Positions 30,328-31,255 of a stretch of 55,533 nucleotides of DNA are shown one piece after another; positions within the stretch are counted from its first letter, which is position 1; each line of letters begins with the position of its first letter. The notes beneath the pieces were generated by a model, which did not search any database, was not told the origin of the DNA, and saw only the letters and a program-made list of their open reading frames with translations. This DNA is from an uncultured Leptolyngbyaceae cyanobacterium (GTDB taxonomy: Bacteria > Cyanobacteriota > Cyanobacteriia > Leptolyngbyales > Leptolyngbyaceae): positions 1-55,533 of the forward strand of contig CALIDI010000053.1 of assembly GCA_938023035.1 (NCBI GenBank), written 5' to 3'. The position numbers and the translations under genes are program-made.

Positions 30328-30701
30328 GAACTCAGAAAAGTGACTTTGCTAAGGCAATTCTATCGGTTGACACAACGATTGCCGCAAAAACTACAGGCAA
30401 GATTTAGTTTGGTCTTCTCAGCTTAGCAATTGCGCCTTCTAAATTTCTCAGATCGGCTTATGTTTTACTTGTTTCAGTAGAGGGCTAGCTTGCTCAGAGG
30501 ACATCGAGAATGGCTGTCAATCATCGGGATGCTCTAGCGCGATCGCGCTCTTGAGAGAAATGTAAAGGATATTTACAATATCTGCTTCTCTATTAAGAAA
30601 TATTGCTGCTTTTTGATCCCGTTGCTAGCGTGAATAAGTACCCGGGTACGTCAAGATCACCAACAATAATCACCACAGCGTTTTTCGCGCAGGAGGTACT
30701 T
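30328..30701. other. Upstream region of the membrane-peptide gene
   Basis: About 370 bases. A good promoter lies at 30551-30579 and an untranslated leader of roughly 115 bases leads to the gene. The leader contains a cccgggta-like GC patch (30640-30650). Nothing else was recognised. Confidence 0.5.
30551..30579 (+). promoter_or_regulatory. Promoter for the small membrane-peptide gene
   Basis: TTGAGA (30551-30556), a 17-base spacer, TACAAT (30574-30579). Close match to sigma70-type promoters; the likely start of transcription is near 30586. A palindrome-like gtaaaggatatttac overlaps the spacer and -10 and could be an operator. Confidence 0.65.
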
Positions 30702-30812
30702 ATGATTCTTGTCGCATCTGTGCTAGTTGCAGGTTGGCTACTGGCTTCAACCATCGGAAGCTGGGCTTACTTTGCAGGTGATGTTCCCAACAACTCTGAG
30801 CTAAAAATTTGA
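30702..30812 (+). CDS. 36-residue single-pass membrane peptide
   Basis: A tiny gene with everything a strongly expressed gene needs: a consensus promoter, a perfect AGGAGG (30691-30696) five bases before the ATG, and a terminator-like hairpin 55 bases past the stop. The peptide starts with a hydrophobic helix (MILVASVLVAGWLLASTIG) and ends with a short polar tail (DVPNNSELKI). It has the size and layout of photosystem or NDH small subunits, or of a respiratory-chain stabilising peptide, but I do not recognise it as any of the named ones (PsbX, PsbM, Psb30, PetN, PsaM, NdhP, CydX). Function unknown. Confidence 0.6.
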   Translation: MILVASVLVAGWLLASTIGSWAYFAGDVPNNSELKI

Positions 30813-31255
30813 GTCCGTTCGGCCTCTTCAGGCTGATGTGATTGTCTGGTTTTTTAAGTGCAAAAGGGCTTTCCCAAGTGGGAAAGCCTTTCCTCCGATC
30901 TTTAACCAAACGTGTTTTGCATAAAAGTGTCGTGTTTAATGCCTAACGGCATTATTCAGCTACTAGGAAGCGTTTGGAGTAGTGCAGAGTGCTCTTTACA
31001 TTGATAGGGTCGTGTTTCGTCAGTTGTGACTTCCGTACTCTGGTTCTGGATTGGCTGGGCATAGAACTGTCCGTGATGAGCTAGAGATTGTGATGCAGTG
31101 GGTTGTTTTCCCAAGGAATTTGCTGTGCGCTCTTAAAAGATGATTTAAAGGCCTATCTCCTGATGCCCTGACAACTACTGTCGTAGCGCTACGAACAAGT
31201 GACACATCCAGCTTTGAGGGTCTACGCTGTCAAAATCTTCCTGGCAGAAACTGCG
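30813..31255. other. Spacer with terminator and palindrome
   Basis: Between the small membrane-peptide gene and the convergent protease gene. It has a terminator-like hairpin at 30867-30888 and a perfect 14-bp palindrome tcgtagcgctacga at 31181-31194 of unknown role. An open minus frame (31020-31205) is not supported. Confidence 0.5.
30867..30888 (+). terminator. Terminator-like hairpin
   Basis: ggctttccca (30867-30876) pairs with tgggaaagcc (30879-30888); the inner pairs must open to make a loop. It is followed by tttcctcc, a weak T-tract. It lies just after the small membrane-peptide gene. Confidence 0.55.

Follow-up and report, generated by a model that had tools for sequence, protein, structure and literature searches.

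This locus raises two linked questions: whether a 36-codon open reading frame from an uncultured Leptolyngbyaceae cyanobacterium (GenBank assembly GCA_938023035.1, contig CALIDI010000053.1) is a gene, and what its product might do. The window is the whole stretch of DNA that was analysed, 55,533 nt in length. The frame, its ribosome site and its neighbours lie in it as follows.

30702-30812, plus strand: 36-aa open reading frame, stop codon TGA included, product MILVASVLVAGWLLASTIGSWAYFAGDVPNNSELKI
30691-30696, plus strand: Shine-Dalgarno AGGAGG, 5 nt before the ATG
29986-30327, minus strand: HIT/HinT-type gene, divergent neighbour, scoring 131.7 bits with the HinT model (cut-off 206)
31256-32308, minus strand: next long open reading frame, serine protease-like by eye, no NCBIfam match

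The short gene, its protein and its distribution

The initial annotation had described a 36-residue membrane peptide preceded by AGGAGG five bases from the ATG, and both the frame and the ribosome site were recovered at these positions; most relatives carry GGAGG or AGGAG as the Shine-Dalgarno sequence. Absence of the frame from relatives had been proposed as grounds for discarding the peptide. The comparison was run and found the frame conserved, with homologues across genera. In a genome of the same genus (G292), the protein is 80% identical to the window protein over 35 residues, and the DNA differs at 28 sites, split 6/5/17 over codon positions 1/2/3. The 21 changed codons comprise 13 synonymous and eight non-synonymous changes. 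The third-position bias against G292 demonstrates that purifying selection acts on the frame. We conclude with near certainty that the 36-aa open reading frame is a real, conserved gene.

The single hydrophobic helix and short tail ascribed to the peptide were likewise borne out. The Kyte-Doolittle profile of the 36-aa peptide (19-residue window) peaks at a mean of 2.1, and AlphaFold2, run with 13 relatives, predicted one helix at residues 2-25, with a mean pLDDT of 94 across residues 1-20, a tail at lower confidence and a pTM of 0.39. The frame ends 11 residues past the predicted helix. Residues G11, W12, A15, G19 and A25 are invariant in a 15-member alignment, and one face of the helix carries G11-x3-A15-x3-G19 (GxxxAxxxG), beside W12. 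The 36-aa window sequence contains no histidine.

The HinT-type gene adjoins the short gene in eight of 23 loci compared, the window included, and the other seven all belong to the same family; the 23 exclude the same-genus G292 locus, which is a 3.7-kb contig. Neither the HinT-type gene nor the serine protease-like frame points to photosynthesis, and the functional reading below therefore rests on homology and regulation.

Homologues of 29-42 aa are found in 15 of 42 genomes of the own family, and in genomes outside it, Xenococcus PCC 7305 and Cyanothece BG0011 among them; their distribution is patchy. The family scan with a 15-member profile was bimodal (n=42): 15 genomes scored at least 56.6 bits and the next match 37.4 bits. 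With the same profile, three of 386 genomes in a phylum draw scored at least 63.6 bits, the next scoring 39.2 bits; G070 holds a divergent member in addition to these three and carries the same promoter block (35.8 bits). Because the draw holds many genomes outside the class, 3/386 is an underestimate for photosynthetic species. A named scan returned 14 short-gene loci, several on the same contigs as genomes in the family and phylum draws, from Pantanalinema, Tildeniella, Stenomitos, Lyngbya HA4199-MV5, Cyanothece BG0011, the unicellular SU3, Xenococcus PCC 7305 and two Xenococcaceae. Most hits of wider relative searches were rejected as short-gene orthologues and proved, where read, to be the long form by frame length. 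The weaker matches of the phylum draw were rejected as short forms by the score gap (at least 63.6 against at most 39.2 bits). In the family, 11 of the 15 short-gene genomes also show the long form in the same search.

Probable kinship to Psb35 and Psb35-related proteins

The window protein matched the NCBIfam model NF047380, "photosystem II protein, Psb35-related", with E 2.6e-6 and 27.6 bits (cut-off 80), and the Psb35 model NF047378 with E 0.0021 and 17.6 bits (cut-off 40); such sub-cut-off scores were read for the window protein and one relative. Pfam gave no match for the window protein. At E <=1, NF047380 was matched by all 15 members scanned (best E 2.8e-7) and NF047378 by 12 of the 15 (best E 0.0016). 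The initial annotation had stated that the peptide matches no known small subunit, which holds insofar as both scores lie below the curated cut-offs but fails insofar as the Psb35-related and Psb35 models match across the family; its broader suggestion of a small subunit of a membrane complex is consistent with Psb35-type homology.

Profile-profile alignment of the short family gave a probability of 97.5 and E 7.7e-12 with the 76-aa Psb35-related family, the whole helix being aligned, and a probability of 44 and E 2.3e-4 with the Psb35 of the own genome, these E-values being those of single-pair comparisons. The own genome encodes a full-length Psb35 on G000:C20 (97.7 bits) and the 76-aa Psb35-related long form on G000:C29 (L146, minus strand, ATG at 4724; 145.5 bits), so that the short gene comes in addition to these two and is no degenerate sole copy. 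A tree of 25 columns split short from long forms with support of 0.983 without Psb35 and 0.99 with Psb35, which was placed on the short side; the short group was not upheld in this tree as a single clade rooted on Psb35, and, with 25 columns, the short/long split is weak evidence. Kinship of the helix to the Psb35 superfamily is very probable, and the short form is apparently an additional, nearly tail-less third branch of it. The helix alone aligns, and homology of this kind is weak proof of a shared function; the function of the long family is taken from its database name.

Putative promoter, leader and RpaB-like sites

Six further features flank the short gene.

30551-30579, plus strand: conserved upstream block TGA...TTTACAAT, of which 30562-30579 form a degenerate HLR1-like repeat
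30593-30606, plus strand: conserved TTAAGAAATATTGC block, on the minus strand like the HLR1 direct repeat of RpaB
30603-30631, plus strand: putative core promoter TTGCTG-17-TAGCGT, in a block conserved in 19 loci and found also 5' of a short-chain dehydrogenase/reductase (SDR) gene
30638-30649, plus strand: palindrome GTACCCGGGTAC, likely mRNA 5' end, the same or analogous in several relatives by eye
30678-30690, plus strand: hairpin GCGT-TTTTC-GCGC, directly 5' of the Shine-Dalgarno sequence, judged by stem statistics over 19 loci
30864-30891, plus strand: terminator-like hairpin of 12 pairs, 3' of the stop, judged by folding against shuffles

The promoter set consisted of 19 of the 20 loci tried (L142 was left out); it also omits L108 (79 nt upstream only), L117, L119 and L123 (the 3-kb loci of G318, G434 and G433), L143 (G070) and L144 (G325). 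Its 85-nt block has the consensus TGAG, TGTAACAAT, TTAAGAAATGTTGCA and TTGTTAGnGTG, in that order. The promoter had initially been placed at TTGAGA-17-TACAAT. Those letters are present at 30551-30579, both hexamers stand inside conserved blocks and keep a constant spacing in the promoter alignment, and the pair is the best promoter-like match in 29500-32000 (10 of 12 letters), a region in which such matches occur at chance level (three found against a mean of 2.7 in shuffles); the promoter was nevertheless probably mis-assigned. Across the 19 loci the conserved block extends about 50 nt past TACAAT, in most of them to TTGCWG-17-TAGNGT, and leaders of variable length start only after the end of the latter. 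The most economical and most likely reading of the alignment is that TTGCTG-17-TAGCGT is the core promoter, with an RNA start predicted near 30637-30639. Its -10 form TAGNGT fits the TAN3T pattern described for NtcA sites (PMC6331805). Since the spacing is constant, a second transcription start at TTGAGA-17-TACAAT is possible.

Stems preceding the Shine-Dalgarno sequence gave a summed score of 203.5 over the 19 loci, against 117 (SD 16) in dinucleotide shuffles, none of 300 being as high. In 18 of the 19 loci a stem of four or more pairs ends no further than 5 nt from the ribosome site, and its arms vary yet pair (GAGT/ACTC, AAGT/ACTT, GGGA/TCCC, GCGT/GCGC). Shuffles also form stems, at 6.2 per locus against 10.7 in the real sequences; L101 has no such stem, and the best stems of L103, L109, L137 and L140 are not clearly the same one. 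The hairpin claimed after the stop was found, with 12 pairs and a folding energy of -19.3 kcal/mol against -12.7 (SD 2.1) in 30 shuffles, but no long T run follows it, the T's sitting in the stem. Relatives, for instance L106 and L140, do have a long T run after the hairpin. A GGCTTCCC...GGGAAGCC stem occupies the equivalent position in five of the 18 other loci, and the downstream hairpin is more than 2 SD more stable than shuffles in 14 of 19 loci (all except L097, L098, L102, L103 and L137).

A model of the 85-nt block found two strong copies in the own genome: that of the short gene, at 57.3 bits, and another some 350 nt 5' of the start of an SDR gene (G000:C18:53073-53156; 52.5 bits), the next place scoring 14.8 bits. 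The block precedes the short gene in all 15 short-gene genomes of the family (34.0 to 65.2 bits), four of which (G318, G433, G434 and G435) are outside the training set. At E <=1e-4 a phylum draw of 244 genomes yielded 28 with the block, and at E <=0.001 the family yielded 33 out of 42. We read 56 promoter loci, which take in a part of the block matches of the family scan: 16 stand before the short gene (13 from the training set; L169, L194 and L202 from outside it) and 38 before an SDR gene by motif, or 39 with L197, which is truncated at a contig end and was assigned by eye. Because the model was built without any SDR locus, the link between block and SDR gene is independent. The 85-nt promoter block is thus reused by two unrelated genes. 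The SDR gene itself is matched by 226 models, and its name is generic. At L201 (G435:C292:4242-4324), the one remaining locus of the 56, a 60-bit copy of the block was followed downstream for about 1.5 kb, and no short gene and no SDR motif were found.

In many cyanobacteria the SDR leaders mostly run about 100-350 nt behind the block (loci L155, L163-L168, L170-L187, L198, L200, L203-L211, L213 and L214). A mini-ORF with a ribosome site occurs in 21 of 38 of them, about where the short gene begins in its own loci; these mini-ORFs are mostly 11-15 aa long and eight start with MLY. This region is possibly a leader peptide or a regulatory RNA.

The HLR1 repeat, KTTACAWW-N2-KTTACAWW, is described as activating when upstream (-66 to -45) and repressing when across the start (-38 to +23) (PMC13421787). 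Of 43 long-form genes, 39 have an HLR1 site (<=3 mismatches) in the 200 nt upstream, most often beginning 39-55 nt 5' of the ATG; among 387 background stretches, 19 have one. The evidence is thus much stronger for the long form than for the short gene. The 43 loci were drawn from L005-L059 and do not include the own copy (G000:C29), which has a site, GTTACATTAGTTTACAGA, with one mismatch. These counts place the nearest paralog of the short gene in the light-response regulon and suggest that the long "Psb35-related" gene may be high-light-induced. The 300 nt upstream of the own Psb35 hold no HLR1 within five mismatches on the plus strand and two with five on the minus strand.

The best HLR1 matches in the window have four mismatches on the plus strand and three on the minus strand. 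Scored with an HLR1 matrix built only from 25 distinct long-form sites, 14 of 19 short-gene promoters lay above the background 95th percentile, as did 16 of 24 SDR promoters, mostly on the minus strand; the 24 are a subset of the 39 SDR loci, with L197 among them out of register. In a first matrix test with 180-nt windows, 13 of 19 short-gene promoters were above the threshold and the window promoter below it (1.2 vs 1.4). One SDR promoter has a near-perfect HLR1 site (20.1 bits). The genomes are related and not independent samples, so these counts express consistency, not that many separate events. Short promoters perhaps carry degenerate RpaB-like sites.

Proposed role, rival readings and known single-helix proteins

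We lean towards the reading that the short gene encodes an accessory single-helix protein for CP47/Hlip or other chlorophyll-protein assembly modules. Published accounts have Psb35 stabilise both the CP47 module and the binding of Hlips (PMC9145668; PMC11449106). By homology, the product would be a single-pass membrane protein, presumably of the thylakoid, and its G11-x3-A15-x3-G19 face beside W12 would allow tight packing against a partner helix. Its role might resemble that of Psb35, as an accessory factor in chlorophyll-protein assembly with a presumed partner; nearly tail-less, unlike the 76-aa paralog, it could act by membrane docking alone. Expression would be from its own regulated promoter, perhaps through RpaB-type sites, both the regulator and the direction of the light response being presumptive, and the short leader of the transcript would fold into a small hairpin immediately 5' of the ribosome site.

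An extension of this role, which we consider unlikely, is that the short and long proteins form a light-switched pair under opposite RpaB control, the short gene having been born under a copied SDR promoter and leader. The long-form HLR1 sites near the ATG, probably over the promoter, would mean repression and hence high-light induction, and the RpaB-type sites of the short gene, upstream of and at the -35, could mean activation and expression in growth light. A single sensor would then determine whether newly forming photosystem modules are docked by the helix with a tail or by the one without. As to origin, a Psb35-related helix would have come under the copied SDR promoter and leader, replacing the mini-ORF of the leader. 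Counted from the predicted start, the RpaB-like sites of the short gene occupy roughly -77 to -60 and -49 to -32; because they match the activating window of -66 to -45 only partly, the odds of the idea were lowered slightly.

That the short protein serves a different thylakoid complex (PSI, NDH-1 or cytochrome b6f) as a small subunit or "glue" peptide, much as SliP4 does, is possible although doubtful. The short protein resembles SliP4 in its size, single helix and possible RpaB control, and Psb35 seems, according to one review, to be common to PSI and PSII (PMC11449106); against this, SliP4 sequences score only 1.0 and 0.6 bits against the short-family profile, on which ground SliP4 orthology was rejected, and PDB searches with the window protein and the family profile returned no PSI, NDH-1 or b6f chain at E <=10. 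A membrane partner or anchor for the co-regulated SDR enzyme is improbable: the sole other strong copy of the block in the own genome precedes an SDR gene, and a second copy occurs in 11 of the family's 15 genomes with a short gene (of these copies the own one is the only one read as SDR, and that of G435 is L201), but the SDR gene with its block also turns up in numerous genomes that yielded no short gene, and the own genome has the two genes on separate contigs.

We attach very little probability to a locus that is mainly a regulatory RNA with an incidental peptide. The short transcription unit and conserved hairpins fit such an RNA; the third-position bias, the conserved helix motif and the absence of any Rfam match up to E 0.1 argue against it, and the same Rfam result led us to reject a known structured RNA. 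Still more remote is a hydrophobic type I toxin peptide, whose size and hydrophobicity fit, given that the short family matches a photosystem-named model and that a simple scan of the strand opposite the gene found nothing promoter-like. With the peptide of a relative as query, phage records gave no match and plasmids two weak, unrelated-looking ones, and viral contigs hold no relative; a phage or plasmid origin was rejected on these searches.

The preferred reading, that of an accessory helix in chlorophyll-protein assembly, can be compared with several known systems. SliP4 (HliR1 of Synechocystis) is described as a 37-aa, RpaB-controlled protein that aids the association of NDH-1 with photosystems (PMC12850537); its likeness to the short protein does not extend to the sequence, in which no relation was found, or to the locus, since SliP4 is reported upstream of sodB (PMC5126843) and the short gene is flanked by the serine protease-like frame and the HinT-type gene. 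With a search pattern taken from a primer printed in PMC5126843, SliP4 itself was seen in two of 386 genomes, both of one genus (L215 and L216), as MSNLIAVAFCGYFALLI[AV]LFSAKNFLVKDKASLNLPE, followed by a frame that is superoxide dismutase by eye.

The GWxxAxxxG run of the short protein aligns to the Dunaliella PsbW chains 9gnw_W and 7pi0_W of the PDB (E 0.015). Just two distinct sequences match, and Pfam searches with the 15 members returned PsbW for none of them at E <=10, so that PsbW kinship was rejected beyond a lead. Cytochrome b559 alpha was rejected as kin (13.6 bits against a cut-off of 93.95, one of 15 members matching, no haem histidine). HLIP and OHP proteins bind chlorophyll through the motif ExxNGRxAM, which is absent from the window protein sequence.

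The nearest relative is the long NF047380 form, of 73-78 aa in most loci read. In both, the N-terminal helix contains GW, followed by a small residue four positions further and by G eight positions further, and AYF. Absent from the short form is the KPIHERNW...DAY tail, some 45 aa long. Where most long forms read VAA or VAV, most short ones read LLA, and where the long form has Q or L, W predominates in the short form; the promoters of the two differ as well. Among 43 long forms the first G is kept in 41 and the second in all 43, and the middle position is A in 26, V in 15 and G in two. A PDB search at E <=10 returned no solved structure of the long paralog. Psb35 (Ssl2148, NF047378) shares the single helix, its copy in the own genome having the same G-x3-A-x3-G spacing, and differs in its N-terminal extension and charged C-tail. 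This GxxxAxxxG face suggests that a helix of the Psb35 kind may be built for packing on another helix.

A partial literature search on Psb35 and SliP4 returned no description of the short family; a small branch, for which we found no name, would thus be added to the family of photosystem II assembly helpers. A Thermosynechococcus elongatus assembly intermediate is described as containing, beside Psb34, an unassigned helix that is neither Psb35 nor HliA/B in that account (PMC9458560), which makes unnamed one-helix proteins of this kind worth listing.
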